From Protaetiibacter larvae (GTDB lineage: Bacteria > Actinomycetota > Actinomycetes > Actinomycetales > Microbacteriaceae), in NCBI RefSeq assembly GCF_008365275.1, contig NZ_CP043504.1:682001-746000 (forward strand): a stretch of DNA of 64,000 nucleotides. The letters are read 5' to 3'. The translations under genes and the position numbers were made by a program. The number at the start of each line of letters is the position of its first letter. Position 1 is the first letter of the stretch. The notes under the pieces were generated by a model, which saw only the letters and a list, made by a program, of their open reading frames with translations, did no database searches and had not been told where the DNA came from. Positions 10,036 to 57,342 of this stretch are shown here, one piece after another.

Positions 10036-10233
10036 CCCATCTCAAGGATCACAGCATCCCATCTCAAGGAGTCCACACCGGATTGCGGCAACTTGCGCCT
10101 CAGCGGGCAACAGAAGTCACACCGACTCCTTGAGATGGGATGCCCGACTCCGTGAGTTGGGATGCCCGACTCCGTGAGTTGGGATGCCCGACTCCTTGAG
10201 TTGGGATGTCCGACTCCGTGAGAGGGGAGGCGG
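10036..10233. repeat. 22-bp periodic repeat array in inverted arrangement
   Basis: On the right, five 22-base units start GACTCC(T/G)TGAG at 10124, 10146, 10168, 10190 and 10212, head to tail with no spacer. On the left, the reverse complement of the same unit occurs at 10054-10073 and, truncated, at 10036-10048, again in 22-base phase. About 50 bases of unique sequence (10074-10123) separate the two orientations, making a large inverted repeat. Together with the 14-bp repeats it fills most of the 310-base gap 9971-10280 between pfkA and the hydrolase; I see no gene there. Confidence 0.85.
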
Positions 10234-10280
10234 GCAGGCGGACGAGGGGGAACCGGGGGCGGGGTCCCGCGGCGGTCCGC

Positions 10281-11303
10281 TCAACCGAAGAGGACGGCGG
10301 CCTCGTCGTAGCGCGACTGCGGCACCGTCTTCAGACGACCCAAGGCGTCCTCGAACGGCACGTTCACGATCTGGGTGCCGCGCAGCGCCACCATCCGGCC
10401 CCAATGCCCCTCGAGGATCGAGTCGACCACGGCCATCCCGTAGCGGGTGGCGAGCACCCGGTCGTACGCCGTCGGGGTGCCGCCTCGCTGGATGTGGCCG
10501 AGGGTCGTGGCGCGCGTCTCGATGCCGGTGCGCGCCTCGATCTCCGGCGCGAGCATGTCGCCGATGCCGCCCAGCCGCGGGCGGCCGAAGGCGTCGAGCC
10601 CGCGCTCCGAGTGGGCGTCGTCCATCGTGTCGAGCTTGAAGCCCTCCGCGACCACGATGAGCGGGGCGCGGCCGCGCTCGCGGGCCGAGTTCACCCATCC
10701 GCAGATCTCGTCCATGCTCGTCTTGCGCTCCGGGATGAGGATCGCGTGGGCACCCGCCGCCATGCCCGAGTGCAGCGCGATCCACCCGACGTGGCGACCC
10801 ATCACCTCGGCCACCATGCAGCGGCCGTGCGAGTCCCCCGTGGTGCGCAGCCGGTCCATCGCCTCGGTGGCGATCTCGACGGCGGTGTCGAAGCCGAAGG
10901 TGTAGTCGGTGGCCGACAGGTCGTTGTCGACCGTCTTCGGCACGCCCACGATCTGGATGCCCTCATCGGTGAGGCGCTTGGCGGCGGCCAGGGTGCCCTC
11001 GCCGCCGATCGCGATGATGGCGTCCATCCCGTTCTCGGCCATGACCTCCTTCACCCGAGCGACGCCCCCGTACTCGAAGGGGTTGGTGCGCGAGGTGCCC
11101 AGGATCGTGCCGCCCTGCTTGGAGATGCCCATCACCTGGGGGCGGGCGAGCGGGATGAGGTCGGCATCGACGAGGCCCTTCCAGCCGTCGCGGATGCCCA
11201 CGAACTCGAGGTCGTGCTGGGTGATGCCCTTGAGCACTGCTCCGCGGATGACCGCGTTGAGCCCCGGACAGTCGCCGCCGCTGGTGAGGATTCCGATCTT
11301 CAC
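10281..11303 (-). CDS. pfkA: 6-phosphofructokinase
   Basis: A 340-residue glycolytic enzyme phosphorylating fructose 6-phosphate. The start is GTG, giving KIGILTSGGDCPGLNA. Further landmarks are AIGGEGTLAAAKRL, GVPKTVDNDL, TTGDSHGRCMVAEVMGRHVGWIA and HIQRGGTPTAYDR. The GGEGT pattern with Lys in PKTVDND is that of the mixed-lineage (group III-like) actinobacterial enzymes; the Gly at the phosphoryl-donor position favours ATP over pyrophosphate, but I cannot prove the donor from sequence. The large repeat array lies directly downstream. Confidence 0.93.
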   Translation of the reverse strand: MKIGILTSGGDCPGLNAVIRGAVLKGITQHDLEFVGIRDGWKGLVDADLIPLARPQVMGISKQGGTILGTSRTNPFEYGGVARVKEVMAENGMDAIIAIGGEGTLAAAKRLTDEGIQIVGVPKTVDNDLSATDYTFGFDTAVEIATEAMDRLRTTGDSHGRCMVAEVMGRHVGWIALHSGMAAGAHAILIPERKTSMDEICGWVNSARERGRAPLIVVAEGFKLDTMDDAHSERGLDAFGRPRLGGIGDMLAPEIEARTGIETRATTLGHIQRGGTPTAYDRVLATRYGMAVVDSILEGHWGRMVALRGTQIVNVPFEDALGRLKTVPQSRYDEAAVLFG

Positions 11304-11361
11304 CCGTTCATCATGCCCTGTTTTCGGGCCCTGCCTCTCGCGCAGCCCGACGCGGGCTCGG

Positions 11362-11367
11362 TAGAGT
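11362..11367 (+). promoter_or_regulatory. -10 box TAGAGT upstream of the DUF4190-like gene
   Basis: TAGAGT sits 50 bases before the ATG at 11418, leaving a leader with GAGGAGAG as ribosome site. The region is divergent from pfkA. Confidence 0.45.
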
Positions 11368-11417
11368 GCCGCGGAGCCGGGTTCTTCCGGCCACCACCAC
11401 TGTTTCCGAGGAGAGTC

Positions 11418-11798
11418 ATGACCGACCCCATCAACCCGGGCGAGGCGCCGCAGCCTGCGCCCGCCGTCCCGCCCGCCTACCAGGCGCCCGTCGCCTCGCC
11501 GGATTCCTTCCCGGGCAAGGGACTCGGCATCGCGGGTCTCATCCTGGCGATCTTCATCCCCGTCATCGGCCTCATCCTGAGCATCGTCGCGAAGGTGCAG
11601 TCGAAGAAGGTCGGCGCGAAGAACACGCCCGCGACCGTCGGCATCGTGATCAGCATCATCCTGATCGTGCTCGGCATCATCGTGGCGATCGTGATCGGTG
11701 TGACCGGCGCGGCGCTGTTCGGCCACATCGTCGAGGTCTGTGCCGAGAACGGCCCGGGCGAGTGGACGATCGACGGCGTCACCTACACCTGCAAGTAG
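11418..11798 (+). CDS. DUF4190-like membrane protein
   Basis: A 126-residue protein. Residues 1-33 are Pro- and Ala-rich, followed by two hydrophobic segments (about 36-57 and 73-102) separated by a short basic loop (KVQSKKVGAKN), the DUF4190 layout, and a small extracytoplasmic C-terminal tail with two cysteines (CAENGPGEW...YTCK) that could form a disulfide. Its function is unknown. The start has a strong GAGGAG site, and a textbook hairpin terminator follows the stop. Confidence 0.75.
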   Translation: MTDPINPGEAPQPAPAVPPAYQAPVASPDSFPGKGLGIAGLILAIFIPVIGLILSIVAKVQSKKVGAKNTPATVGIVISIILIVLGIIVAIVIGVTGAALFGHIVEVCAENGPGEWTIDGVTYTCK

Positions 11799-11810
11799 CA
11801 CGCGCGTCTC

Positions 11811-11840
11811 GGGGCCGGGCGGAGCGATCCGCCCGGCCCC
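11811..11840 (+). terminator. Intrinsic terminator hairpin
   Basis: Perfect 13-bp inverted repeat (11811-11823 with 11828-11840, arm GGGGCCGGGCGGA) with a four-base loop, 12 bases after the stop of the DUF4190-like gene. It lacks a long T-run, as is common for GC-rich actinobacterial terminators. Confidence 0.85.
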
Positions 11841-11875
11841 TTCGCGTGGCGGCGGGCGCGATCGGCCGCGGGGGT

Positions 11876-11881
11876 TAGCCT
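11876..11881 (+). promoter_or_regulatory. Leaderless -10 box TAGCCT for the AlkA-like gene
   Basis: TAGCCT ends seven bases before the ATG at 11889, and no ribosome site is visible between them. Confidence 0.6.
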
Positions 11882-11888
11882 GACCGCG

Positions 11889-12797
11889 ATGGATCCGATC
11901 GTCGCGCGGTACGCCCCCGCCGAGCAGGTGGTGCTGCGGCTCGTGCTCGCGCCGCTCGCGCAGGGCGGCACCGACCCGACCTTCCGGCGGGATGCGGACG
12001 GCTGGTGGCTCACGCTGCGCCTCGCCACCGGTGCCGCGACGCTGCTGCTGCGCGAGCACCGCGACGGCGTCGAGGCGCGGGCCTGGGGTGCGGGCGCCGA
12101 GGAGGCGATCGCCGGGGTGCCTGCGCTGCTCGGCGCGGACGACGACGCCGAGGGCTTCGAGCCCGGGCGTCATCCGCTCGTGGCACGGCTGCACCACGAG
12201 CATCCCGGCCTGCGGCTCACCCGCACCGGGCGCATCCTGCCGTGCCTCGTGCCGAGCGTGCTCGGGCAGAAGGTGACCGGCATCGAGCAGAAGAGCGCCT
12301 GGCGGCAGCTCGTCACCCGGTTCGGCGACCCTGCGCCCGGTCCCGCACCGCTCGGGATGCGCGTCGTGCCGTCCGCGGAGCGCTGGCGCCGCATCCCGTC
12401 CTGGGAGTGGCATCGGGCGGGTGTCGGCCCGCAGCGCGCCGACACCCTCATGCGCGTGTTCGCGGTGGCGGACGCTCTCGAGCGCGCGGCGACGGTGCCG
12501 GCGGACGAGGCGGCGCGTCGGCTGCGGACCCTCGCTGGCATCGGCCCGTGGACGGTCGCGGAGACCGTGCAACGCTCGCACGGCGATCCGGACGCGGTGA
12601 GCGTGGGCGACTTCCACCTGTGCAAGCGGGTGGGCGCCGCGCTCATCGGGCAGCGGGTCGACGACGACGGGATGCTCGAGCTGCTCGAGCCCTGGCGCGG
12701 GCACCGTCAGCGGGTGGTGCGGCTCATCGAGACCGCGGGCCTCGGCTACGAGCGCCACGGTCCGCGGCTGGCGATCCCCGCCCACCGCTCCCGCTGA
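11889..12797 (+). CDS. DNA-3-methyladenine glycosylase II-like (AlkA/HhH-GPD superfamily)
   Basis: A 302-residue base-excision repair protein. The helix-hairpin-helix is LRTLAGIGPWTVAETVQ (about 213-229), followed 12 residues later by the catalytic aspartate in AVSVGDFHLCKR (Asp241), as in AlkA-type glycosylases that remove alkylated purines. There is no Ada-type domain, and the N-terminal 110 residues are a divergent AlkA-N-like region. It is likely a leaderless transcript (TAGCCT seven bases upstream). Its stop lies within a 14-bp duplicated sequence, and repeats follow. Confidence 0.88.
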   Translation: MDPIVARYAPAEQVVLRLVLAPLAQGGTDPTFRRDADGWWLTLRLATGAATLLLREHRDGVEARAWGAGAEEAIAGVPALLGADDDAEGFEPGRHPLVARLHHEHPGLRLTRTGRILPCLVPSVLGQKVTGIEQKSAWRQLVTRFGDPAPGPAPLGMRVVPSAERWRRIPSWEWHRAGVGPQRADTLMRVFAVADALERAATVPADEAARRLRTLAGIGPWTVAETVQRSHGDPDAVSVGDFHLCKRVGAALIGQRVDDDGMLELLEPWRGHRQRVVRLIETAGLGYERHGPRLAIPAHRSR

Positions 12798-12811
12798 CCC
12801 GCTCCCGCTGA

Positions 12812-12856
12812 CCCGCACCGCGCGCATCCGCACCGCGCGCACCCGCACCGCGCGCA
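12812..12856. repeat. 15-bp tandem repeat, three copies
   Basis: Three 15-base units of the form CCCGCACCGCGCGCA (12812-12826, 12827-12841, 12842-12856, one difference). They are preceded by two copies of a 14-base unit (12785-12798, 12799-12812), the first of which contains the stop codon of the glycosylase gene. They belong to the 334-base gap 12798-13131, in which I see no gene. Confidence 0.8.
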
Positions 12857-12903
12857 CCCGCGCCGACCTGCGCCGCGCCGACCCCCGCCAGATTCCGCCC
12901 TCG

Positions 12904-12997
12904 CCACCCCAGAAATGCAGGATCATCGGCCGCCGACCCCCGTGCGGGCGGGCTACCGGCGGATGGCGGAGCGGAATCTCCTGCATTTCTGGGGTGG
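12904..12997. repeat. Inverted repeat of the AGAAATGCAGGA family
   Basis: Arms at 12904-12922 (CCACCCCAGAAATGCAGGA) and 12979-12997 are perfect reverse complements of 19 bases, separated by 56 bases. The core AGAAATGCAGGA recurs four times at 28309-28464. The element lies between two genes on the same strand. Confidence 0.85.
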
Positions 12998-13119
12998 TGG
13001 TGGGGAGGGTGGCGGGGTGGTGGGTGGGCGGATGGACGGATCGTCCGACGTCGGCGGGCAGCTCCTGGCTCGTGTTGTGGATGAGGCACAGCGATCGAGC
13101 GATTCCGCTGCGCAGCGTC

Positions 13120-13125
13120 TAGCGT
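13120..13125 (+). promoter_or_regulatory. Leaderless -10 box TAGCGT for the thioesterase gene
   Basis: TAGCGT stands exactly six bases before the GTG at 13132; a 12-base palindrome CGCTGCGCAGCG (13106-13117) lies just upstream. Confidence 0.6.
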
Positions 13126-13131
13126 GCTCGC

Positions 13132-13689
13132 GTGGGATTCATCCGCCGCTTCTCCCGACTCGCCTGGCTCACGACGCGCGCGCCGAAGCTGCCGCCGCTC
13201 GACCTCTACGACGTGTGCCGGTCGCCGCGCCGCGTGCAGCTCGGCGACCTCGACGAGTTGCGCCACATGAACAACGGCGCCTACCTCAGCAACCTCGACC
13301 ACGCCCGTCAGGAGCTCGTGGTGCGCACGGGGCTCTGGGCGCGGTTGCGTGCCGCCGGCATCTATCCGGTCGTGTCGGCCCAGACGATCGCGTACCGCAA
13401 GTCGCTGCAGTTCGGGCAGCGCTATGTGATCGAGTCGCGGCTGCTCGGCCTCGACGACCGTGCCGTGTATGTGGAGCAGCGTTTCGTGGTGGGCGGCGAG
13501 GTGTACGCGCGGGCGTATGTGCAGGGGCGCTTCCTCTACGACGCGGGGGGCACGGTGCCGATGGAGGCCCTCGTCGAGGTCACCGGGGTCGATCCGGTCG
13601 AGCATCCCGTGCCGGCGTGGCTGCACGACTGGGCCGCCCAGGTGCGGCTGCCCGGCACCCGGCAGCCCGCGCCGAGCGAGTGGGGGTAG
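13132..13689 (+). CDS. Acyl-CoA thioesterase, 4HBT/THEM6-like hot-dog fold
   Basis: A 185-residue single hot-dog-domain protein. The motif VQLGDLDELRHMNNGAYLSNLDHAR (about residues 38-62) is the hot-dog helix with the HMNN signature of 4-hydroxybenzoyl-CoA thioesterase-like and THEM6-like proteins; the catalytic acid is presumably the Asp in that region. It would hydrolyse acyl-CoA esters, with unknown chain specificity. GTG start with a TAGCGT box six bases upstream, so probably leaderless. It is convergent with the FAD oxidoreductase gene, with a hairpin repeat between the two stops. Confidence 0.8.
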   Translation: MGFIRRFSRLAWLTTRAPKLPPLDLYDVCRSPRRVQLGDLDELRHMNNGAYLSNLDHARQELVVRTGLWARLRAAGIYPVVSAQTIAYRKSLQFGQRYVIESRLLGLDDRAVYVEQRFVVGGEVYARAYVQGRFLYDAGGTVPMEALVEVTGVDPVEHPVPAWLHDWAAQVRLPGTRQPAPSEWG

Positions 13690-13699
13690 CTCTGTGCTG

Positions 13700-13762
13700 A
13701 AGTCCGACGCAGCGGGGGCATGAGCTGCTGGCTGCAGGCGATGCCCCCGCTGCGTCGGAGTT
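13700..13762. repeat. Inverted repeat with GTCCGACGCAGCGGGGGCAT arms
   Basis: Arms of 22 bases (13700-13721 and 13741-13762) with a single mismatch and a 19-base loop, between convergent genes. The right arm includes the first two bases of the TAA stop (minus strand, 13761-13763) of the FAD oxidoreductase gene. It can act as a bidirectional terminator. A decayed relative is at 53172-53235. Confidence 0.85.
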
Positions 13763-15308: not shown

Positions 15309-15314
15309 GTGGTC

Positions 15315-15320
15315 ACACTA
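15315..15320 (-). promoter_or_regulatory. Leaderless -10 box TAGTGT for the FAD oxidoreductase gene
   Basis: TAGTGT on the minus strand ends exactly six bases before the ATG at 15308. Confidence 0.55.
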
Positions 15321-15342
15321 GGGGGTCGCGGATCTCGATACA

Positions 15343-15359
15343 CCGCGGCTGCGCCGCGG
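15343..15359. repeat. Short GC hairpin CCGCGGC-TGC-GCCGCGG
   Basis: Perfect 7-bp stem with a three-base loop inside the context CTCGATACACCGCGG...CACTCGATCA, in the 98-base gap between two minus-strand genes. It probably serves as terminator for the upstream gene (15407-16789). Confidence 0.65.
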
Positions 15360-15406
15360 CACTCGATCAGCGGAGTAGTCGCGTCGCGCGCCGCCCGACC
15401 ACCGGC

Positions 15407-16789: not shown

Positions 16790-16899
16790 GGCGCCTCCTC
16801 TCGCCTTCGAGCCTAGGAAGCATCCTTGTGCGCGGAGTTGCCATCGGCGCTCGATCGTTGCGCGGCACGCGATTCGGCGCACGAGGCGTGCGCCGCGGG

Positions 16900-17721: not shown

Positions 17722-17745
17722 GTCGCCAGACTAGGCGACGTGCCC
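17716..17745 (-). promoter_or_regulatory. Inverted repeat enclosing the hydrolase -10 box and start codon
   Basis: GGGCACGTCGCC (17716-17727) and its exact reverse complement (17734-17745) flank the six bases that read TAGTCT on the minus strand. The downstream arm contains the GTG start of the hydrolase. It can be an operator straddling a leaderless promoter, or the terminator of the permease gene that ends at 17767. Confidence 0.6.
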
Positions 17746-17766
17746 GGCGCAGGCCAGGAGTCCTCG

Positions 17767-23211: not shown

Positions 23212-23273
23212 ATCGAGCCGTCGTATCCGGGGCCCTATCCCGGGAGATAGGCCACCGGATACGACGGCTCGAT
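23212..23273. repeat. 62-bp palindrome, copy 1
   Basis: The outer arms (23212-23230 and 23255-23273) are 19-base perfect reverse complements, ATCGAGCCGTCGTATCCGG, and the 24-base interior is itself nearly palindromic (GGCC, TATC, GATA, GGCC). It is identical over 62 bases to the copy at 24292-24353. The right edge touches the stop codon (23273-23275) of the gene between the copies. Confidence 0.92.
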
Positions 23274-24214
23274 CAGCCGGACCAGCCCCGGGAGCGGAGG
23301 TCCGCCGCGATGCGGGCGAGGGCGGCCCGGGATGCGGGGGTGCGCAGGCGCGGGTCGACCTCGTCCGAGGTGAGGCGATGGGTGGACCAGCCGATCGCCG
23401 CGAGCTCCTGCTGCTTGCGGATGTCGCGCCGGAACTTCTCGGGACTCTGGTGGAGGAGGCTCTCGTACTCGGTGCCGACCCGGAACGCGGGGTGGGCGAG
23501 GTCGAGCATGTGGATGAAGCGCCCACCGGGCGCATGCACCCGGAAGTTGAGCTCGGGCTCCGGCAGACCGCCGCGCCAGAACATGAGACGCAGCTGCGTC
23601 TCGCGGCGGGAGAGCGGCCCGTACCGCACGAGCCCGAGTGCCTCGCGCGCGCGACGGATGCCTCGGGCACCGGCCATCGCATCCGTCGCGGCGCTCAACT
23701 CTGCGTGCGTACTGAGCGGCGGCACCGCGTCGAAGGGATGGGTCCCCGTGACGAGGAAGTCGCCCGCGGCGACGAGATCGTCGAGACCGAGCAGTGGTGC
23801 GCTCAGCACCCAGCTGGTCGCCGGGTCCGTGAGGCTCAGCTCGCCGAGGCGGGTGATGGTGGTGCGGTCGGGGTCCAGCTGGTGCGGGATGGTGCTGCGC
23901 GTGCGCGGACGTGATGGCCCGATCGACGACACGTGAATCGCCTCCTGCTGCTCGACCCGCGCCGGCAGTGGCGCGCCCCACAGCACGAGGGCGGTGGTGT
24001 GGCTGATCGCCTGGTCCGGGCCCTGCCGGAGCGCGAAGGCTGCGGCGAGTCTGACCGGATCGAGCGGTCCGTCATCCATCCGCACGGTGTGGAAGGGGGC
24101 ACGGAGGGTCGGCGCCTTCAGCCGGTCGAGCGAGACCCCCAGAGCCTGGGCGGAGCGGACTGTGAAGGCCCCGCTCGCGAGGGGCTCGGGAAGGGGTATC
24201 CGGGTTCTCGGCAT
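23273..24214 (-). CDS. AbiEi-like N-terminus with DUF559/Vsr-like nuclease-fold C-terminus, hypothetical
   Basis: A 313-residue protein of a type frequent in Microbacteriaceae. The N-terminal part (GAFTVRSAQALGVSLDRLKA, then FHTVRM) resembles the AbiEi antitoxin N-domain. The C-terminal part reads HMLDLAHPAFRVGTEYES...HQ...RRDIRKQQELAAIGWSTHRLTSDEV, the D, E-Y and RD spacing of DUF559/very-short-patch-repair endonuclease folds. No toxin partner is adjacent, so a toxin-antitoxin label is not supported. It is bracketed by two identical 62-bp palindromes, and its stop codon abuts one of them. A GAGAGT box six bases before the ATG may be its promoter. Confidence 0.6.
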   Translation of the reverse strand: MPRTRIPLPEPLASGAFTVRSAQALGVSLDRLKAPTLRAPFHTVRMDDGPLDPVRLAAAFALRQGPDQAISHTTALVLWGAPLPARVEQQEAIHVSSIGPSRPRTRSTIPHQLDPDRTTITRLGELSLTDPATSWVLSAPLLGLDDLVAAGDFLVTGTHPFDAVPPLSTHAELSAATDAMAGARGIRRAREALGLVRYGPLSRRETQLRLMFWRGGLPEPELNFRVHAPGGRFIHMLDLAHPAFRVGTEYESLLHQSPEKFRRDIRKQQELAAIGWSTHRLTSDEVDPRLRTPASRAALARIAADLRSRGWSG

Positions 24215-28291: not shown

Positions 28292-28308
28292 CCGATCGCG
28301 CTCCGGTG

Positions 28309-28470
28309 AGAAATGCAGGAGCCGTCGGCGGATCGCCCTCCCGCCCGGTCCAGAAATGCAGGAGGCTTCTGCCGCATCCCGCCGGTTTTCGGCCCACAGC
28401 ATCCGCCCGGGGCAGATTCTCCTGCATTTCTGAGGGGGCGCGGCGCGTCACTCCTGCATTTCTGGACCGG
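28309..28470. repeat. AGAAATGCAGGA repeat cluster, two nested inverted pairs
   Basis: Four copies of the 12-base core: forward at 28309-28320 and 28352-28363, reverse at 28420-28431 and 28452-28463. The second and fourth copies extend to a perfect 20-base inverted repeat (28345-28364 with 28451-28470). The same core forms the pair at 12904-12997. The right arm encodes the last residues and stop codon of the methyltransferase gene. Confidence 0.88.
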
Positions 28471-29368: not shown

Positions 29369-29394
29369 ACAGCCCCCACCGCCTCGGGTGTTCA

Positions 29395-29468
29395 TGGCGC
29401 GGCTGGAGCCGTGCCCTCGCGGCGGGAGGCGTTTCCCCCGCCGCGAGGGCACGGCTCCAGCCGCGCCA
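29395..29468. repeat. Inverted repeat with perfect 32-bp arms (TGGCGCGGCTGGAGCC family)
   Basis: Arms 29395-29426 and 29437-29468 are exact reverse complements over 32 bases with a 10-base loop, beginning TGGCGCGGCTGGAGCCGTGC. It lies exactly between the two divergent leaderless promoters of the DNA and RNA methyltransferase genes. Related elements are at 36924-36997 and 57259-57290. Confidence 0.93.
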
Positions 29469-29473
29469 CGATC

Positions 29474-30106: not shown

Positions 30107-30109
30107 AGT

Positions 30110-30175
30110 CCCCGAAAGTACGCACTTCGGGGGCTCCCAGCGGCGTGTCGACCCCAGAAGTACGTGCTTTCGGGG
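30110..30175. repeat. Inverted repeat, CCCCGAAAGTACG family, copy 1
   Basis: Arms 30110-30128 (CCCCGAAAGTACGCACTTC) and 30157-30175 pair with two mismatches around a 28-base spacer, between the stops of the convergent RNA methyltransferase and YhgE-like genes. Related copies are at 33250-33315 and 41150-41223. Confidence 0.88.
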
Positions 30176-30195
30176 AGATCGCGGAGGGGGCGGGC

Positions 30196-33169: not shown

Positions 33170-33175
33170 GCCCTC

Positions 33176-33181
33176 ATCGTA
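33176..33181 (-). promoter_or_regulatory. Leaderless -10 box TACGAT for the TetR gene
   Basis: TACGAT on the minus strand, six bases before the ATG at 33169. Confidence 0.58.
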
Positions 33182-33190
33182 CGCCTAACT

Positions 33191-33206
33191 TGCACATCTG
33201 TGTGCA
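33191..33206. promoter_or_regulatory. Candidate TetR operator TGCACATCTGTGTGCA
   Basis: Perfect 6-bp inverted repeat with a four-base centre, starting ten bases upstream of the -10 box of the TetR-ABC-YhgE operon. It is AT-richer than its surroundings and has the usual size of a TetR operator. Confidence 0.65.
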
Positions 33207-33249
33207 CATTATTCGCGCCCCGGCATCCCCGGCTCCCTCTCCCCTTTCT

Positions 33250-33315
33250 CCCCGAAAGTACGTACTTCTGCGCCCCCGGGCGGCGTTTCGACCCCAGAAG
33301 TACGTACTCTCGCGG
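33250..33315. repeat. Inverted repeat, CCCCGAAAGTACG family, copy 2
   Basis: Arms 33250-33268 (CCCCGAAAGTACGTACTTC) and 33297-33315 pair with two mismatches around a 28-base spacer. It lies in the divergent region between the TetR and purA promoters. Spacing and arms match copy 1 at 30110-30175. Confidence 0.88.
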
Positions 33316-33330
33316 AGATCGGGGAGCCGA

Positions 33331-33336
33331 TAGGCT
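33331..33336 (+). promoter_or_regulatory. -10 box TAGGCT for purA
   Basis: TAGGCT lies 35 bases before the ATG at 33372, giving a short leader with an AAAGGGAG ribosome site. Confidence 0.55.
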
Positions 33337-33371
33337 GGGGTGTAATCCCCCGTCGAACAAAGGGAGACGCT

Positions 33372-36910: not shown

Positions 36911-36923
36911 CTTCGGGGGTTCA

Positions 36924-36997
36924 TGGCGTAGCTGGAGCTACGACCTCACGGCGGGAGGCGTTTCTCCCGCCGCCAGGTCACGGCTCCAGCCGCGCCA
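36924..36997. repeat. Imperfect inverted repeat of the TGGCGCGGCTGGAGCC family, copy 2
   Basis: Arms 36924-36956 and 36965-36997, about 33 bases each with several mismatches, between the stops of the convergent SDR and purL genes. Clearly related in sequence and loop (AGGCGTTT) to the perfect copy at 29395-29468, which is 7.5 kb away. Confidence 0.88.
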
Positions 36998-37006
36998 CGG
37001 AACCAG

Positions 37007-40586: not shown

Positions 40587-41159
40587 ATGCCCCTGCGCCG
40601 CGTCGTGATCCTGCACGGCTACACCGCCCATCCCGGCAAGCACTGGTTCGGCTGGCTGCGGGAGCAGCTCGCCCCGCTCGGCGTCGTCACCGAGGTTCCC
40701 GCTCTGCCCGATACCGAGCATCCGGATGCCGCCGCCTGGACGGATGCCGCGGTCGCGGCGATCGGCCGCATCGATGCGCACACCGCGGTGGTCGGCCACA
40801 GCCTCGGCACGATCACCGCCATCCGAGCTCTCGGCCGCGTGGTCGCCGAGCAGCCGGATGCGCGCCTCGGCGCCCTCGCCCTCGTCGCGTCCTTCGTCGA
40901 TCCGGTGCCGATCTACCCCGAGCTCGACCCGTTCACCCGAGGCCTGCCGAGCCTGCCGGGCCTCGCGGCACGCATCGACCGGCGCCTCGTGCTGCGTTCC
41001 GACGACGACCCCGAGGTGCCGATCGCGCTGACCCCGCCGGTCGCCGCGGGGCTCGACGCCGAGCTCGTGGTGGTGCCCGGTGCGGCCCATTTCTGCGAGT
41101 CGCAGGGCGTCACGACCCTCCCCCCGCTCGCCGCCTGGCTGCGCCAGACGGCTCCGTGA
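40587..41159 (+). CDS. RBBP9/YdeN-type alpha/beta hydrolase
   Basis: A 190-residue small serine hydrolase. VVILHGYTAHPGKHWFGWL is the RBBP9/YdeN opening, VVGHSLGT holds the nucleophile (Ser about 72), DDDPEVP supplies an acidic residue and PGAAHFCESQG the histidine. Substrate unknown. The last residues (RQTAP) and stop are encoded by the arm of a perfect 27-bp inverted repeat shared with the opposing PadR gene. Confidence 0.87.
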   Translation: MPLRRVVILHGYTAHPGKHWFGWLREQLAPLGVVTEVPALPDTEHPDAAAWTDAAVAAIGRIDAHTAVVGHSLGTITAIRALGRVVAEQPDARLGALALVASFVDPVPIYPELDPFTRGLPSLPGLAARIDRRLVLRSDDDPEVPIALTPPVAAGLDAELVVVPGAAHFCESQGVTTLPPLAAWLRQTAP

Positions 41160-41223
41160 GAGTACGCACTTCGGGGCCTCGCGACGGCGTGTCGCGCCCC
41201 GAAGTGCGTACTCTCACGGAGCC
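41150..41223. repeat. Inverted repeat, AGTACGCACTTCGGGG family, copy 3 (perfect 27-bp arms)
   Basis: Arms 41150-41176 and 41197-41223 are exact reverse complements of 27 bases with a 20-base loop. Both arms run into the coding ends of the two convergent genes, so each protein ends Thr-Ala-Pro-stop encoded by the same arm sequence. The inner part (AGTACGCACTTCGGGG) matches copies 1 and 2 at 30110 and 33250. Confidence 0.93.
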
Positions 41224-41759
41224 GTGAGCGCGGTGAGGGCCGCGAGGGTCTCGTCGGCCCAGGCGATCGAGGCGCGAGCGGTGTGCTCGCCCGCCGAGAT
41301 CGTCATGAGCCAGTAGGCGCGCTGGGGGAGCTCGGCCGGCTCCGCCTCGGTCTCGCGTCGGGCCGCCGCGAGCGCCGCGAGCTGGGCGACCGCCTGCTCC
41401 CGCGCCTCCCCCACGAGCGCCCGGCACGCCTCCGCCCCGATCACGTCGCCGAAGAACAGCCGCAGCAGCATCCCGTTGCGCGGCGGTGTCATGACGGCGG
41501 GTTCGCGCATGAGTTCGACGAGCCGCGCCCGCCCGGCCGCGGTGAGCCGATGCACGCTCGACCCGGTGCGCTCGCCCGCATCCACCTCGACGAGTCCCTC
41601 CGTGCGCAGGCGCGCGAGCGCGGGGTAGATCTGCCCGAAGCTCTCGTTCCAGAAGGAGCCGAGGTGCGTGCGGATGGCGTCGCGCACGGCGTAGCCGGTC
41701 ATCGGCGCGACGCTCAGTGCGGCGAGCACCGCGAGGTCGGTCTGGGTGGCGCGTGGCAT
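41214..41759 (-). CDS. PadR-family transcriptional regulator
   Basis: A 181-residue regulator. The winged helix spans residues 8-75 (LAVLAALSVAPMTGYAVRDAI, NESFGQIYPALARLRTEGLVEV, HRLTAAGRARL), the PadR signature, and a helical dimerisation region follows. The ATG follows TATACT by six bases. AT-rich repeated TATATCT motifs cover the promoter region shared with the divergent membrane-protein gene, so it probably controls both itself and that gene. Confidence 0.9.
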   Translation of the reverse strand: MPRATQTDLAVLAALSVAPMTGYAVRDAIRTHLGSFWNESFGQIYPALARLRTEGLVEVDAGERTGSSVHRLTAAGRARLVELMREPAVMTPPRNGMLLRLFFGDVIGAEACRALVGEAREQAVAQLAALAAARRETEAEPAELPQRAYWLMTISAGEHTARASIAWADETLAALTALTAP

Positions 41760-46572: not shown

Positions 46573-47511
46573 ATGCGCATCCGTTCCCGCTTGCTGGGTG
46601 TCGGCGCGGGCGTCGCCCTCGCCGCCCTCGCCCTCACCGGCTGTTCCACCGACCCCGCGCCCGCCGATGGCGGCAAGGCGGCCCCCGCGGCCGACGAGGG
46701 CACCTTCGCCAAGGACGCCGACACCCTGGTGTTCGTGGTCCTCCCCGACCACGAGGGCTCCGACCAGGACGCCGAGCCGATCGCCGACTACATCGCCGAG
46801 ATCACCGGCAAGAAGGTCGAGTTCTTCGAGGCCACCGACTACACCGCCGCCATCCAGGCGCTCGCCTCGGGTCAGGCCGACATCGGCCAGATCTCGGCCT
46901 TCACCTACTACCAGTCGAAGAACGCCGGCGCGGACATCTCGCCGATCGGTGCGCAGATCACCAAGGAGGGCGCCGAGCCCGGCTACTACTCGGTGGCCAT
47001 CAAGAACCCGGCCTCCTCGGCCTCCTCGCTCGCGGACTTCGCCGACCAGCCGGTCTGCTTCGTGAACCCGGAGTCCACCTCGGGCTTCCTGATCCCGAAC
47101 AGCCAGCTCCTCAAGGCCGGCGTGACGGTCCCCGAGGACAAGCAGGTCTTCGGTGAGAAGCACCCGGCCACCGCGGCGCTCGTCGCCGAGGGCGCCCAGT
47201 GCCAGGTGGGCTTCGCCCAGGACATCGACGCCGACCCGCTCATCGCGTCCGGCCAGCTCGAGGAGGTCGACCGCTACCTGGTTCCGGCCGCCCCGATCGT
47301 GCTGCAGAACGCGCTCCCGCAGGACGTCAAGGACGCGCTCTTCGCCGGCCTCCAGGGTTCGACCCAGAAGTCGCTGACCGACAAGGGCATCGAGCTGAAC
47401 GACTTCCTGCTCAACGGCTGGTTCGGCTTCGGCGCGGTGGATGACGCGTACTACGACACCATCACCGCGGTGTGCGAGCAGCTGCCCGACGTCGAGGCCT
47501 GCAAGGCCTAA
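46573..47511 (+). CDS. phnD: Phosphonate/phosphite ABC transporter substrate-binding lipoprotein
   Basis: A 312-residue lipoprotein. The signal peptide ends in lipobox LTGC (Cys24). The PhnD-type fold shows LVFVVLPDHEGSDQDAEPIADYIAEITGKKVEFFEATDYTAAIQALASGQADIGQISAFTYYQSK and later PVCFVNPESTSGFLIPN, where PhnD proteins have the Ser-Thr-Ser-Gly phosph(on)ate-binding loop. First gene of the operon, with GAAAGG in front. It would capture phosphonates outside the membrane and deliver them to the PhnCE transporter. Confidence 0.92.
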   Translation: MRIRSRLLGVGAGVALAALALTGCSTDPAPADGGKAAPAADEGTFAKDADTLVFVVLPDHEGSDQDAEPIADYIAEITGKKVEFFEATDYTAAIQALASGQADIGQISAFTYYQSKNAGADISPIGAQITKEGAEPGYYSVAIKNPASSASSLADFADQPVCFVNPESTSGFLIPNSQLLKAGVTVPEDKQVFGEKHPATAALVAEGAQCQVGFAQDIDADPLIASGQLEEVDRYLVPAAPIVLQNALPQDVKDALFAGLQGSTQKSLTDKGIELNDFLLNGWFGFGAVDDAYYDTITAVCEQLPDVEACKA

Positions 47512-47526
47512 CGGGACGCACGCGAC

Positions 47527-50210: not shown

Positions 50211-50218
50211 TGGCGGGC

Positions 50219-53150: not shown

Positions 53151-53171
53151 CCGCCGCTCCCGCCGCGTTCC

Positions 53172-53235
53172 GAACTCCGACCCGGGCGGGGCGTCGCCTG
53201 CACGCTGCAGGCAAGGCTCCTGCTGCGTCGGATCT
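53172..53235. repeat. Decayed inverted repeat related to 13700-13762
   Basis: AACTCCGAC on the left and GCTGCGTCGGATCT on the right resemble the ends of the element at 13700-13762, and a central perfect GCCTGCA-CGC-TGCAGGC hairpin (53196-53212) matches its loop region. It again lies between two convergent genes. Confidence 0.6.
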
Positions 53236-53247
53236 TGCCCCAGCTCG

Positions 53248-54036: not shown

Positions 54037-54043
54037 GGCCGGG

Positions 54044-54049
54044 AGTCTA
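54044..54049 (-). promoter_or_regulatory. Leaderless -10 box TAGACT for the SGNH gene
   Basis: TAGACT on the minus strand, seven bases before the GTG at 54036. Confidence 0.58.
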
Positions 54050-54082
54050 CGGGAGCAGATCCTGCGGGATGCTGCGAGCGGC

Positions 54083-54955
54083 TCAGCCGCGGCCCTCGGC
54101 GGTGACCAGGATGCGGTTGCCCCACGGATCGTCGAGCTCGACCGTGCGCCCGTCGTCGCGGCTGTCGATGCCGAAGTGGGCGAGGCGCTCGCCGAGTTCG
54201 CCCAGCGCATCGCCGTCCGGCACCTCGATGTCGACCCGGCCGAGCCCGAGGGTCTGCTGGCGTCGGCCCGCGCCGCGGCTGTTCCACACGTTCATCGCCA
54301 TGTGGTGGTGGTATCCGCCCGCGCTCACGAAGACCGCCTGACCGGGGATGCTGATGGTCTCGTCGAAGCCCAGCCGGTCGACGTAGAAGGCGCGGGCGGT
54401 GTCGACGTCGCCCACCGAGAGGTGCACGTGGCCGACGCGGGCGTCCCCGGGGAGGGCGTGCTCCATCCCCTCCTCGGTGAGGTTCTCGGCGAGGAAGCGG
54501 TTGGGGTCGAGGTAGACGGTGCCCATCTCGATCGTGCCGTGCACCCAGCTCCACTGGCTGCGGTCGCGATCCCAGTAGAGCTCGACGCCGTTGCCTTCGG
54601 GGTCGTCGAAGTAGAAGGCGTTCGAGACGAAGTGGTCGCTGGATCCGGTGAAGGTGCCGGGATGCTTCTGGGCGACCGAGTAGACGGCGGAGGCGAGTGC
54701 GGCTTTGCTGTCGAAGAGGATCGCGGTGTGGAACAGTCCCGCCTCGCGCGGCCCGGCGTGGCGCAGTTCGGGCGAGTGCACGAGCACGATCACCGGCCGC
54801 GTGCCGCGACCGAGCACGACGCGGGGGTCGGCTTCGTCGATCACCTCGAGGCCGACGGCGTCGCGGTAGTAGCGGGTCATGGCGTCGAGGTCGGCGACGT
54901 TGAGGGTCACCGCGCCCATGGCGGTGTCGGCGGCGAAGCGGCTGGTCTCGGTCAT
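54083..54955 (-). CDS. VOC-family (CatE-like) two-domain metalloprotein
   Basis: A 290-residue protein with two vicinal-oxygen-chelate repeats. The first has GAVTLNVADLDAMTRYYRDAVGLEVI and DPEGNGVELYWDR; the second has VGHVHLSVGDVDTARAFYVDRLGFD, GGYHHHMAMNVW and DDPWGNRI. The histidines in FHTAIL and GHVHLS and the glutamate in VELYWD are the usual metal ligands of catechol 2,3-dioxygenase (CatE-like) enzymes. It may open catechol or quinol rings; the substrate is unproven. GGAG ribosome site before the ATG. Confidence 0.87.
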   Translation of the reverse strand: MTETSRFAADTAMGAVTLNVADLDAMTRYYRDAVGLEVIDEADPRVVLGRGTRPVIVLVHSPELRHAGPREAGLFHTAILFDSKAALASAVYSVAQKHPGTFTGSSDHFVSNAFYFDDPEGNGVELYWDRDRSQWSWVHGTIEMGTVYLDPNRFLAENLTEEGMEHALPGDARVGHVHLSVGDVDTARAFYVDRLGFDETISIPGQAVFVSAGGYHHHMAMNVWNSRGAGRRQQTLGLGRVDIEVPDGDALGELGERLAHFGIDSRDDGRTVELDDPWGNRILVTAEGRG

Positions 54956-54993
54956 GTCGACTCCAACTTACTTGACGCAACAACTATTCCGCA

Positions 54994-55055
54994 ATGGTGC
55001 GGTTTCGGCTGGATGGCGCGCATTCGCGCGTGCCATCCAGCCGAAACCGCACCAT
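54994..55055. repeat. Inverted repeat with perfect 24-bp arms (ATGGTGCGGTTTCGGCTGGA)
   Basis: Arms 54994-55017 and 55032-55055 are exact reverse complements with a 14-base loop that extends the stem by GCGC. It lies between purC (stop at 55055-55057) and the VOC gene start, both on the minus strand, and could terminate the pur transcript. Confidence 0.92.
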
Positions 55056-55957
55056 CAGCGGGGGAGAGTCAGCCGCTCGATGAGCTCGCGGTACCGCGCC
55101 GCCGTGCGCTCGACGATCTCGGCCGGCAGCTCGGGCGGGGTGCCCTGCTTGTCCCAGTGGGCGGCGAGCCAGTCCCGCACGATCTGCTTGTCGAAGCTGT
55201 CGAGCCGGTTCGCCCCGCCCGCCGCGTAGGCCTCGGCATCCCAGTAGCGGCTCGAGTCGGAGGTGAGCACCTCGTCGGCGAGCGTGATCTCGCCGCTCGC
55301 CGCATCCCGCCCGAACTCGAACTTGGTGTCGGCGAGGATCACCCCGCGCTCCTCCGCGATCGCGGACGCGGTCGAGAACACGTGCAGGCTGAGGTCGCGG
55401 ATGGCCGCCGCATCCGTGGCGCCCACGAGCTCGACGGTCTGCGCGAAGGTGATGTTCTCGTCGTGCTCGCCGAGCGGCGCCTTGTACGCGGGGGTGTAGA
55501 TGGGCTCCGGCAGGCGGTCGCCGTTCGAGAGGCCGGCCGGCAGCGGGATGCCGCACACCGATCGGCTCGCCTGGTACTCGACCCAGCCCGAGCCCACGAG
55601 GTAGCCGCGCACGACCGCCTCGATGGGGAACATGTCGAGCCGCTTGACGAGCATCGCGCGCGCCGCCACATCCGGCGGCAGCGGCGACTCGAGCGCGGCG
55701 AGCCCACCCGCGGTCGGCTCGACCAGATGGTTGGGCACCTCGAGCCGCGAGAACCACCACAGGCTCAACTGCGTCAGCAGTGCTCCCTTGCCGGGAATCC
55801 CGGGGCTCAGCACGTGGTCGAAGGCGCTCACCCGGTCGGATGCGACGACGAGCGCGCGGCCCGGCTCCGCATCCGAGAGGTAGAGGTCGCGCACCTTGCC
55901 GGCGTACTCGTGGCGCCAGCGCAGCGCCTCGAGGCGGGGGTCGCCGATGCCGCTCAT
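55055..55957 (-). CDS. purC: Phosphoribosylaminoimidazole-succinocarboxamide synthase (SAICAR synthetase)
   Basis: A 300-residue enzyme adding aspartate to CAIR with ATP. YAGKVRDLYLSDAEPGRALVVASDRVSAFDHVLSPGIPGKGALLTQLS is the nucleotide and substrate region, and KRLDMFPIEAVVRGYLVGSGWVEYQ, LILADTKFEFG-like VILADTKFEFGRD, LADEVLTSDSSRYW and SFDKQIVRDWL complete the signature. Its ATG overlaps the purD stop by four bases. Confidence 0.97.
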   Translation of the reverse strand: MSGIGDPRLEALRWRHEYAGKVRDLYLSDAEPGRALVVASDRVSAFDHVLSPGIPGKGALLTQLSLWWFSRLEVPNHLVEPTAGGLAALESPLPPDVAARAMLVKRLDMFPIEAVVRGYLVGSGWVEYQASRSVCGIPLPAGLSNGDRLPEPIYTPAYKAPLGEHDENITFAQTVELVGATDAAAIRDLSLHVFSTASAIAEERGVILADTKFEFGRDAASGEITLADEVLTSDSSRYWDAEAYAAGGANRLDSFDKQIVRDWLAAHWDKQGTPPELPAEIVERTAARYRELIERLTLPR

Positions 55958-57240
55958 CGGGCCACCCGCTCCGCGATGTCGGTGCGGTGCTGCCCGCCCT
56001 CGAGCCGGATGAGGCCGATCGCCTGGTAGGCCGCCGCGCGCGCCGCGCGGAAGTCGTCGCCGCGCGCGACGACCCCGAGCACGCGCCCGCCGGTCGCCAC
56101 ATAGCCGCCGTCGACGAGTGCGGTCGAGGCGTGCGCGATCGTCACACCCGGGACCGCGGCGGCATCCTCGAGCCCCGCGAGCGCCCGCCCGGTCACCGGA
56201 TCCTCCGGGTAGCCTTCGCTCGCGAGCACGACCACCACGGCCACCTCGTCGGAGAACGCGGGATACGGCAGCCGGCCGAGCGAGCCGGTCGCGGCCGCGA
56301 GCAGCAGCTCGGAGAGCGGGGTGCGCAGGCGCGGCAGCACCACCTGGGTCTCGGGGTCGCCGAAGCGCGCATTGAACTCGATGACCCGCACAGCGCCACC
56401 GCCGGGCCCGCCCTCGTCGCTCACGATGAGTCCGCAGTACAGCAGCCCGATGAAGGGGGTGCCCTCCGCCTCGAGCGCGCGGACCGTCGGCAGGGCGATC
56501 GTGTCGAGCACCTCGTCCACGAACGCCGCCTCGGAGCCCCAGCGCGCCGAAAGCCACGGCAGCGGCGAGTAGGCGCCCATGCCGCCCGTGTTGGGGCCTT
56601 CGTCGCCGTCGTAGGCGCGCTTGTAGTCCTGGGCGGGGCTCAGCGGCACCACGTCGTGGCCGTCCGCGAGGAAGAACAGCGACACCTCCTGGCCCGAGAG
56701 GAACTCCTCGACGAGCACCGGGCCGTACTGCAGGTAGTGGTCGGCGTGGGCGATCGCCGCATCCCGGTCCTCCGTGACGAGCACGCCCTTGCCGGCCGCG
56801 AGGCCGTCGGCCTTCACGACGTGCGGGGCGCCCAGTGCGTCGAGCGCGGCCACCAGTTCGTCGTGGCTGGTGGCGCGGACCGCGCGGCCGGTGGGCACCT
56901 GCGCCGCCTCCATGATCCGTTTCGCGAACGCCTTCGAGCCCTCGAGCGCCGCGGCCGCCTTGCCGGGGCCGAAGACGGGCACCCCGCTCGCACGCAGCAC
57001 ATCCGCCACGCCCGCCACGAGCGGTGCCTCCGGGCCGACCACGACGAGCTCGACGTCGTTGTCGAGGGCGTATTGCGCGACGATCCGACCGTTGCTCGGG
57101 TCGAGGGCCACCGTCTCCACCTGGGCGGCGATGCCGGCGTTGCCGGGCGCGACGGTGATCTGGTGGTCGGCGCCCTCGGCGAGGAGGGCTTCGACGATGG
57201 CGTGCTCACGGGCACCGGATCCGAGGACGAGGATCTTCAC
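55954..57240 (-). CDS. purD: Phosphoribosylamine-glycine ligase (GAR synthetase)
   Basis: A 428-residue ATP-grasp ligase. MKILVLGSGAREHAIVEALLAEG begins the protein, with KADGLAAGKGVLVTEDRDAAIAH as the grasp loop, FLADGHDVVPLSPAQDYKRAYDGDEGPNTGGMGAYSPLPW and VIEFNARFGDPETQVVLPRL. GTG start exactly six bases after TAGCCT (leaderless). It forms an operon with purC, and is divergent from the sterol-carrier-like gene across a palindromic repeat. Confidence 0.97.
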   Translation of the reverse strand: MKILVLGSGAREHAIVEALLAEGADHQITVAPGNAGIAAQVETVALDPSNGRIVAQYALDNDVELVVVGPEAPLVAGVADVLRASGVPVFGPGKAAAALEGSKAFAKRIMEAAQVPTGRAVRATSHDELVAALDALGAPHVVKADGLAAGKGVLVTEDRDAAIAHADHYLQYGPVLVEEFLSGQEVSLFFLADGHDVVPLSPAQDYKRAYDGDEGPNTGGMGAYSPLPWLSARWGSEAAFVDEVLDTIALPTVRALEAEGTPFIGLLYCGLIVSDEGGPGGGAVRVIEFNARFGDPETQVVLPRLRTPLSELLLAAATGSLGRLPYPAFSDEVAVVVVLASEGYPEDPVTGRALAGLEDAAAVPGVTIAHASTALVDGGYVATGGRVLGVVARGDDFRAARAAAYQAIGLIRLEGGQHRTDIAERVAR

Positions 57241-57246
57241 TCGGAC

Positions 57247-57252
57247 AGGCTA
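57247..57252 (-). promoter_or_regulatory. Leaderless -10 box TAGCCT for purD-purC
   Basis: TAGCCT on the minus strand, six bases before the GTG at 57240. Confidence 0.6.
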
Positions 57253-57258
57253 CCGGCC

Positions 57259-57290
57259 CGTCGTGGCGCGGCTGGAGCCGCGCCACGACG
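57259..57290. repeat. Palindrome of the TGGCGCGGCTGGAGCC family, copy 3
   Basis: CGTCGTGGCGCGGCT (57259-57273) pairs perfectly with 57276-57290 around two bases. It shares TGGCGCGGCTGGAGCC with the elements at 29395 and 36924, and the following bases up to about 57335 contain further CTCCCGCCG pieces of that family. It lies between divergent purD and sterol-carrier-like promoters. Confidence 0.82.
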
Positions 57291-57342
57291 GCGGGGGGCG
57301 TGCCTCCCGCCGTGCGGGTGCTTCTCCCGCCGTCGCGCGCGG

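Follow-up and report, generated by a model that had tools for sequence, protein, structure and literature searches.

Results

Palindromes and a nuclease gene in the window

The window, a stretch of 64,000 nucleotides from the Protaetiibacter larvae genome, carries one gene for a protein with an AbiEi-like part and a Vsr-like nuclease domain, together with palindromic repeats of families A to H at its gene boundaries. The elements are as follows (palindromes have no strand):

23273..24214, minus strand: E-type nuclease gene (protein P0001, 313 aa), between two identical E palindromes
23212..23273: E palindrome, downstream copy, 62 bp, touching the stop codon
24292..24353: upstream E palindrome, the same sequence as 23212-23273
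29392..29471: A palindrome, family of nuclease G000:C1:910955-911911
36917..37004: A palindrome between convergent genes
57259..57350: partial A palindrome between divergent genes; the orthologous gap of G008 is 36 bp and empty
30109..30176: B palindrome, convergent gap, family of nuclease G000:C1:147737-148636
33239..33326: B palindrome, divergent gap; in relatives the same gap holds a B-like palindrome, another family or none
41148..41225: B palindrome spanning the stop codons of both convergent genes; G002, the sole comparable relative, has a gap of -4 bp
12904..12997: C palindrome, family of nuclease G000:C1:1307248-1308108
28308..28470: cluster of C palindromes with arms at 28308, 28351, 28420 and 28452
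13700..13762: D palindrome, family of nuclease G000:C1:2431278-2432054
53172..53235: D palindrome, degenerate
54994..55055: F palindrome, family of broken nuclease gene G000:C1:856346-857020
10035..10246: G palindrome that includes half-units in tandem, family of nuclease G000:C1:1571543-1572391; orthologous gaps are 3, 3 and 8 bp
15330..15375: H, a weak, sub-threshold inverted repeat resembling the GGTTGAGTAGC..TCGAAAC repeats of G002/G003

The gene downstream of the B palindrome at 33239..33326 is presumably purA.

A previous sequence-only reading of this DNA had described families of near-perfect inverted repeats lying only between genes, and family members were found at 14 of the 15 places that it named. 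With strong inverted repeats defined by a score of at least 16, the window contained 13, as compared to one in ten dinucleotide-preserving shuffles combined; 12 of the 13 lie at places already noticed, and the remaining one, at 57588, is intragenic. The proposed recurrence was recovered for A (29395, 36924, 57264), B (30110, 33250, 41154), C (12910, 28308-28452), D (13703, 53222) and E (23212, 24292). The elements at 10036 (G) and 54994 (F), taken earlier for single members, instead belong to multicopy families, with 7 and 6 strong copies, respectively, in a 464-kb sample. The repeat at 15343 (H) is weak and that at 53172 (D) degenerate, both below threshold, and the A element at 57259 is a partial copy. 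The intergenic location holds for nearly all elements, but B at 41148-41225 (which overlaps both convergent gene ends by ~12 bp) and C at 28451-28470 run into genes, and E touches a stop codon at 23273.

The sample used for repeat counts, window included, covers ~18% of the P. larvae genome and contains 36 strong repeats, of which 30 were placed in gaps and six were left out of the orientation count. As had been claimed, all gap types are occupied, with 12 elements in convergent, 12 in tandem and 6 in divergent gaps. Because gaps of at least 30 bp in the sample number 35 convergent, 138 tandem and 57 divergent, convergent gaps are enriched for strong repeats (p = 3e-4, one element being treated as one gap), yet they are not the exclusive location. 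The gap lies downstream of at least one gene for 24 of the 30 placed elements. Intrinsic terminators should lie downstream of genes and be conserved in place, a pattern that these elements do not show: 6 of 30 elements occupied divergent gaps, and the relative lacked an inverted repeat in 19 of 31 gap comparisons.

Dispersed families have a fixed architecture

The sequence-only reading had also raised the question of whether the arms recur elsewhere. Genome-wide, they form multicopy families, for example A at 40 places, a count that omits isolated near-match A arms, and C at 35. Arm spacing was tested for families A, C and F, and the dispersed copies of all three keep it fixed: 67-69 bp in 28/28 neighbouring plus/minus pairs for C, and, at a search tolerance of 1-2 bp, 74 bp in 22/22 copies for A and 60 bp in 10/10 for F. 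A separate recount of exact A arms alone gave 58-59 bp in 21/21. The palindrome units measure 60-90 bp.

Alignments of A and F revealed recurrent stem mismatches. We considered whether these reflect a T:G-mismatch rule for a Vsr-like enzyme; the mismatches of E differ, and so no general rule emerged. No GTAG-like unpaired end tag was conspicuous when copies of A and F were aligned. Two further candidates were rejected. A close B pair at 522.1/523.3 kb probably represents two solo copies, since the enclosed gene resembles that of an ordinary oxidoreductase. An autonomous insertion sequence was considered between the A arms at 910.8 kb, where the enclosed gene proved to be a nuclease.

Ten families pair with ten nuclease loci

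With the exception of H, the families, ten in number, each bracket one gene for an AbiEi-like plus Vsr/EDxHD-like nuclease, nine of these genes being intact and one broken; the pairing of family and nuclease locus is one-to-one. All nine intact genes in the P. larvae genome are bracketed at a score of at least 14, and seven of nine at 16 or more. The broken tenth gene sits between two identical F palindromes. Every strong intergenic inverted repeat of the 464-kb sample (32/32; 30 labelled by script and 2 by eye) falls in one of these ten families. H could be assigned to no nuclease; an H-like repeat occurred in the flank of only one of 78 nucleases (L103), on one side.

We extended the bracket test to nuclease genes from many genomes. 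The test set of 79, reduced to 78 when L108 was dropped for a short flank, included 60 further members drawn mostly, though not strictly, by rank from at least ~150 listed places. At a score of 16 or more, 49 of the 78 nuclease genes shared a flank repeat, versus 2 of 119 neighbouring genes, namely the gene adjoining the A nuclease and that at 46573-47511 of the window. Mismatched-flank controls passed in 1/272 cases within and 5/300 between genomes. Outside the genus, 19 of 40 nucleases passed versus 0 of 26, and across the phylum 14 of 27, with no pass among 14 neighbours or 702 mismatched flanks. Counting against the pairing, 29 of the 78 genes fell short of 16, two G002 loci (L103 and L104) had no clear bracket, and the phylum set includes several brackets formed by direct repeats whose palindromic arms are short.

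The earlier suggestion that a RAYT (Y1) enzyme might accompany the repeats found no match in this genome: a search with Y1_Tnp PF01797 gave 0 hits in its one contig and 3 among the other 59 genomes, none within the genus, with matches in 5 of 14 control genomes, E. coli included. The partner is instead an unrelated AbiEi plus Vsr-like nuclease, one per family. Thus, the palindromes are protein-linked, as proposed, but the partner itself had been missed, although the E-type gene (23273-24214) lies between coordinates that the sequence-only reading had listed.

The nuclease protein

P0001 has an AbiEi-like N-terminal part, seen in alignment with its family, and a C-terminal MTES_1575/Vsr-like nuclease domain, whose Pfam MTES_1575 match (E=2.4e-4, 21.5 bits) is below the curated cut-off of 38.2. 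Its relatives number at least 307 proteins at E<=0.001, itself included. Among 17 diverse members, E205, D238 and H255 (P0001 numbering) are invariant and E249 is nearly so, and these four are the predicted catalytic residues. MTES_1575 matches 15 of the 17 members and DUF559 nine, while PF13338 matches the N-terminal region in eight (all at E<=0.01). NCBIfam provided no name for the nine intact proteins and only two weak hits below cut-off.

The structural model of the C-type protein matched the catalytic domain of the homing endonuclease I-Bth0305I (3r3p chain A, E 5.3e-5, TM 0.83 by target) and also AbiEi (6y8q). Counting against this assignment, the AF2 model of P0001 (pLDDT 84.8) had no PDB match below E 0.001, with I-Bth0305I at E 0.18 and Vsr at E 0.64. 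No partner toxin (AbiEii included) or methylase was noticed by eye among the called neighbours of the nuclease genes in the P. larvae genome. The nuclease is under purifying selection (dN/dS 0.12-0.15 in three pairs). A family match is present in 67 of 149 Actinomycetota genomes; alignment A1 was too diverse for a genome-wide scan, and the narrower A3 gave 6 loci.

Palindromes diverge with the nuclease and turn over in orthologous gaps

Among cross-genome pairs of similar nucleases, 19 of 29 share palindromes, as compared to 15 of 1246 for all other pairs (Mantel 0/2000). Palindromes and nucleases thus co-diverge, and the palindromes follow the nuclease clade, not the genome. In the genus, 88 of 97 exact A arms lie in the three genomes that have an A nuclease at 67% or more. 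Several observations loosen this link. In five E-clade pairs with bit-score similarity of 0.53-0.62, the palindromes are dissimilar (scores 6-9). G004 carries 8 A arms alongside an A-like nuclease at only 42%, and in G001 there are 22 C arms but no C nuclease hit. The arms in G004 and G001 can be leftovers, like F beside its broken gene. In 60-kb stretches of four relatives, compared with part of their nuclease genes, 28 intergenic inverted repeats (score >=14) were found, of which 10 match the flank pair of a nuclease gene in their own genome, 8 that of one in another genus member and 10 none.

The nuclease loci are syntenic and conserved, and most, but not all, share neighbours. Solo palindromes turn over, with orthologous gaps found empty, and in the 19 cases of a repeat-free gap in the relative, the P. 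larvae gap exceeds it by a median of 68 bp. The outcomes named beforehand as speaking against mobility did not appear, the arms being multicopy and most orthologous gaps being different, but the C site at 28308 is shared in place with G008, which carries a C palindrome there; in G005 and G006 this gap is -4 bp. The E site, at which the P. larvae gene lies between two copies, holds a solo palindrome in G006 and in G008, in each case from that genome's E-like family. No transposition event was seen, and no target-site duplications were recognised by eye in the filled/empty comparisons, for which the species are too distant to give a clean test.

Discussion

The best explanation for these results, to which we assign a probability of about 0.7, is that P. 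larvae contains ten sequence-specific palindrome families, each bracketing one AbiEi-Vsr-like nuclease gene whose product likely binds, cuts and disperses its own family. We infer that the spread of the palindromes is nuclease-driven. The AbiEi-like part and the nuclease would recognise the 60-90-bp palindrome, probably as a dimer across the two arms, and the conserved E-D-E-H nuclease would nick or break it. Repair of the break could then copy the palindrome, in a homing-like manner, to a gap that had none or to a palindrome already in place, and rarely the palindrome-gene-palindrome unit might be copied instead of the palindrome alone. Copies persist mainly downstream of at least one gene, and some of them supply stop codons there. 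Some copies may also serve as terminators.

Alternatively, the proteins could be AbiEi-like DNA-binding regulators, with the palindromes acting as operators and bidirectional terminators that were spread by ordinary recombination and kept for expression control, the nuclease domain not being the mover. The similarity to AbiEi, the enrichment of convergent gaps and the greater frequency of relatives' inverted repeats in palindrome-bearing gaps (12/31 versus 5/78 gap comparisons) are consistent with this explanation. We nevertheless consider it unlikely, in view of nuclease residues that are invariant or nearly so in 17 diverse members, of copies in tandem and divergent gaps, of the shorter repeat-free gaps of relatives, and of a nuclease gene bracketed on both sides, not at its promoter alone.

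Still less probable is an origin of the palindromes as MITE-like remnants of ordinary insertion sequences, with the nuclease as a passenger caught between two copies. Such relics would be small, dispersed, intergenic and inverted, with empty sites, as these repeats are, and the E nuclease unit spans ~1.1 kb between two repeats. In contrast, a single nuclease family supplies a separate member to each of ten distinct palindrome brackets, neighbouring genes pass at 16 or more in only 2 of 119 cases, and the nuclease loci are syntenic and conserved, unlike mobile cargo. A classic REP/RAYT system, its Y1 HUH enzyme having escaped the search or acting in trans, would explain the REPIN-like architecture and genomics, with two inverted ends, a variable spacer and a single-copy, vertically inherited enzyme (PMC8049555, in the portion available), but is very improbable given the PF01797 results in this genome, the genus and the controls. 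We give equally little credence to a nuclease defence system that reads the palindromes as a label of self DNA and cuts or spares accordingly; the Vsr-like REase domain named after MTES_1575 has been treated in connection with defence (PMC3710099, from its accessible text), but no toxin or methylase was noticed by eye beside the nuclease genes of this genome, and copy numbers differ widely among species.

The nuclease-palindrome pairs resemble REPIN/RAYT in consisting of short intergenic palindromes, with two inverted ends at a fixed distance, a diverse spacer and tens of copies, and in the single-copy, vertically inherited enzyme gene that lies near its own repeats and co-evolves with them, here with the nuclease in the place of RAYT. 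The stem mismatches of A and F also recall the REP bulge (PMC8266576, as excerpted). They differ in that the enzyme joins a Vsr/EDxHD-like nuclease to an AbiEi-like part, with no Y1 HUH enzyme found, and in having ten parallel families in this one genome, with units of 60-90 bp. Thus, the system works like REPIN/RAYT and fails its defining Y1 HUH test. The REP/BIME-like concept of the sequence-only reading is supported, in that the small palindromes are dispersed, specific to their family and linked to a protein, with orthologous gaps that stand empty; its interpretation as a whole is partly supported.

CGTC-tagged REPs form a class apparently without a dedicated transposase, and differ in having been reported mainly in alphaproteobacteria (Di Nocera et al. 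2013, PMC3733652, available text); that text contains 'actinobacteria' and 'DUF' zero times and 'endonuclease' once, with regard to insertion sequences. I-Bth0305I, described as a phage-derived EDxHD homing endonuclease, is reported to dimerise on a target of nearly 60 bp (PMC3943268, in the accessible part). Its catalytic domain is matched by the C-type model; the nucleases described here differ in binding DNA through an AbiEi-like part and in having genes that stand between repeats with further copies in the same genome. AbiEi and AbiEi_4 share the N-terminal region (PF13338; 6y8q), which is here joined to a nuclease, with no AbiEii toxin gene noticed next door by eye. Among titles and abstract openings from an open-access collection that excludes bioRxiv and most subscription journals, we recognised no report of a palindrome/AbiEi-Vsr nuclease pairing.

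Recognition and spread of such palindromes have so far been known as the work of an unrelated enzyme, in other bacteria. There is an even chance, in our estimate, that a second RAYT/REPIN-like system with a non-homologous enzyme exists across Actinomycetota. Its AbiEi-Vsr 'palindrome nucleases', of which a genome may have as many as ten or more, would each maintain and spread one palindrome population and could insert their own genes into solo copies of it by homing. The ten families account for the origin of all 32 strong intergenic hairpins in the sampled 18% of the genome, which could otherwise be read as terminators, and a widespread, functionally unnamed DUF559/MTES_1575-like plus AbiEi-like nuclease family gains a partner and a function that can be tested. 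Should the nuclease indeed drive the spread, REPIN-like populations would have arisen at least twice, with unrelated enzymes, and the ten parallel nuclease-palindrome pairs of this one genome would be a ready set for a DNA-recognition code.

The palindromes belong to dispersed, multicopy families

Inverted repeats had been reported in the sequence-only reading at about fourteen places in the window, and scanning of the window found them there: 13 repeats scored at least 16, 12 of these at the places named in that reading, as compared to a single repeat in total in ten dinucleotide shuffles of the window. The repeats were also dispersed, as had been proposed, in the genome of Protaetiibacter larvae (G000; one contig of 2.56 Mb, 99.94% complete), in which the window spans C1:682001-746000. 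When 60 genomes were searched, the exact 15-base arm of family A was found in this genome at 61 sites in 40 places, and in its genus relatives at 20 (G002), 7 (G003), 8 (G004) and 1 (G008) sites, with none in G001, G005, G006 and G007 and two in all of the remaining genomes. Exact sites of the family C arm numbered 67 in the own genome, spread over 35 places (reversed pattern as control, none), with one site beyond the genus among 30 genomes searched, the own included. When the chromosome is divided into tenths, the seventh and eighth (G000:C1, ~1.53-2.05 Mb) have almost no A or C palindromes: 1 and 0 places for A and 1 and 1 for C.

A sample was made up of the window and 20 roughly evenly spaced 20-kb stretches, in total 464 kb or 18% of the genome, and 91.3% of it was called as coding. 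It contained 36 inverted repeats scoring at least 16, of which 32 were intergenic. All 32 were assigned to ten families, 30 by script label; the other two, B at 41148 and K at L193:9135, were placed by comparing them by eye with nuclease flanks. The four repeats within genes were members of none of the ten families; for two of them the script gave a false D label, its pattern for D being short and loose.

A and F elements are uniform in length, within the search tolerance of 1-2 bp: 74 bp in 22/22 copies of A and 60 bp in 10/10 copies of F. Arm spacing is kept in C and A. The A stem is unpaired at pairs 16, 17, 18 and 33 in 16, 15, 12 and 16 of 22 copies, respectively, and its loop is identical in 21; the F stem has G.T at pair 24 in nine of ten copies. 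At several sites (including L094, L095 and L098) a palindrome arm includes the adjacent gene's stop codon, and at 41148-41225 the arms supply the stop codons of two convergent genes at once.

Palindrome families are paired with nuclease genes

The RAYT gene that the sequence-only reading suggested seeking was not found: the PF01797 profile had no match in the own genome and matched 3 of 59 other genomes searched, none of them in the genus. Between the two identical 62-bp palindromes of the window lies a gene whose product has a weak MTES_1575 (Vsr-like) match. At 911 kb, A arms enclose another gene, and its product gave an AbiEi_4 match. Family members were collected by a PF18741 search followed by a search with the family alignment. 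The own genome has nine open single-unit nuclease genes and one broken copy with two internal stops, and reading of their flanks showed one palindrome family per locus.

Nuclease loci of the own genome
A, 911.0 kb, palindrome family A in flanks
B, 147.7 kb, palindrome family B in flanks
C, 1307.2 kb, palindrome family C in flanks
D, 2431.3 kb, palindrome family D in flanks
E, 705.3 kb (window 23273-24214, 313-aa product), palindrome family E in flanks
F, 856.3 kb, broken copy, F palindrome on either side
G, 1571.5 kb, palindrome family G in flanks
I, 221.5 kb, palindrome family I in flanks
J, 1332.8 kb, palindrome family J in flanks
K, 1529.6 kb, palindrome family K in flanks

Since each of window families A-G flanks such a locus, all are accounted for, with the exception of H, a weak repeat at 15330-15375. 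Repeats resembling H (GGTTGAGTAGC..TCGAAAC type) are found repeatedly in gaps of G002 and G003 (L207-L209, L219-L220); among the nuclease genes read, none is bracketed by them. A further open frame of 1798 residues, separate from the single-unit members, bears the same nuclease domain (G000:C1:1441979-1442293, L228), and the two forms may have a common origin.

Among 17 aligned members, E205, D238 and H255 were invariant and E249 nearly so. The predicted C-type model (pLDDT 84.9) matched an AbiEi antitoxin as well as the catalytic domain of I-Bth0305I; that of the window protein (pLDDT 84.8) had no significant structural match, its weak ones including I-Bth0305I and Vsr.

Bracketing was compared with controls over 78 nuclease genes from many genomes, each scored by its best ungapped alignment of the upstream flank with the downstream one.

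Flank matches scoring at least 14 and at least 16
Nuclease genes: 54/78; 49/78
Neighbour genes: 7/119; 2/119
Mismatched flanks, different nuclease genes of one genome: 9/272; 1/272
Mismatched flanks, different genomes: 12/300; 5/300
Phylum search, nuclease loci: 15/27; 14/27
Phylum neighbours: 1/14; 0/14
Phylum mismatched flanks: 9/702; 0/702

At the lower threshold, nuclease genes exceeded neighbours both within the genus (33/38 vs 5/93) and beyond it (21/40 vs 2/26). Several of the distant brackets in the phylum search were not strong palindromes; they consisted of direct repeats whose palindromic arms were short. The only neighbour genes reaching 16 were one adjoining the A nuclease and an ordinary gene at window 46573-47511, whose flanks have an inverted match of score 20.

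Nuclease loci are stable and solo palindromes turn over

Many nuclease loci have neighbours that are common across the genus. The C locus is syntenic in six genomes, and in seven the B locus lies beside one and the same gene, its palindromes being of two types. At the syntenic site by the L094 gene, the nuclease is bracketed by a GCGAAAGTACG-type or a GAGGTGTCA-type palindrome depending on the species. Nuclease dN/dS was 0.12-0.15 (three pairs).

The empty orthologous gaps that mobility had been proposed to leave were observed at the G site, where three relatives have gaps of 3, 3 and 8 bp against 310 bp in the own genome, and at B 41148, where the single relative compared has -4 bp against 54. 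At the C site the gap was likewise closed in two relatives (168 vs -4 and -4), but G008 keeps the C palindrome there. Where the relative had no inverted repeat, the own gap exceeded that of the relative by a median of 68 bp (range -108 to 307; n=19), as compared to a median difference of 0 where neither genome had one (n=73). The divergent gap at 33170-33371 holds a B-type palindrome in the own genome and G002, GAGG(T/C)GTCAC-type palindromes in G003 and G008, and none in G005.

At the E site, where the nuclease of the own genome stands between two E copies, G006 has one solo palindrome of its own E-like family, as does G008, where the same right-hand gene adjoins; both carry an E-type nuclease elsewhere. 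Two histories would give this difference: insertion of the gene into a palindrome, or its loss from between two copies. No other observation hints more strongly at homing-like exchange. G002 has other genes at this site and a palindrome outside the assigned families, a strong CATAGTTCCCGTTCCGCG-type repeat (L207, 9961-10026) that matches no fetched nuclease flank.

Palindromes diverge together with their nucleases

Among 51 bracketed members (score at least 15), a palindrome segment (score at least 11) was held in common by 19/29 cross-genome pairs with a protein bit-score similarity of at least 0.5, by 15/1246 of all other pairs and by 2/74 same-genome pairs (Mantel rho 0.17; 0/2000 permutations as high). 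An exception was the E clade, in which five of six pairs (similarity 0.53-0.62) had dissimilar palindromes.

The A nuclease occurs at 67% identity or more only in G002 and G003 besides the own genome, and these three carry 88/97 of the exact A arms of the genus. The C nuclease is present at 79% or more in G008, G003 and G006 (58, 9 and 18 C arms), at 62-63% in G005 and G004 (36 and 2), and at 45% or less, or not at all, in G001, G002 and G007 (22, 4 and 0). G004 has eight exact A arms, yet its closest A nuclease relative has only 42% identity; G004 for A and G001 for C count against a strict link between enzyme and repeat. Their repeats could be leftovers following enzyme loss, as with F.

In 60-kb stretches of G002, G005, G006 and G008, 28 intergenic inverted repeats scoring at least 14 were compared with part of these genomes' nuclease genes (score at least 13 to both flanks). 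Ten matched a nuclease of the same genome, eight that of another genus member and ten none, so the one-to-one picture has been cleanly established in the own genome only.

That nuclease genes and palindrome families are paired has been demonstrated. The palindrome-nuclease system works like REPIN/RAYT and falls outside it, because the Y1 enzyme was not found. Co-divergence, conservation and analogy suggest that each nuclease would recognise, cut and spread its palindromes.
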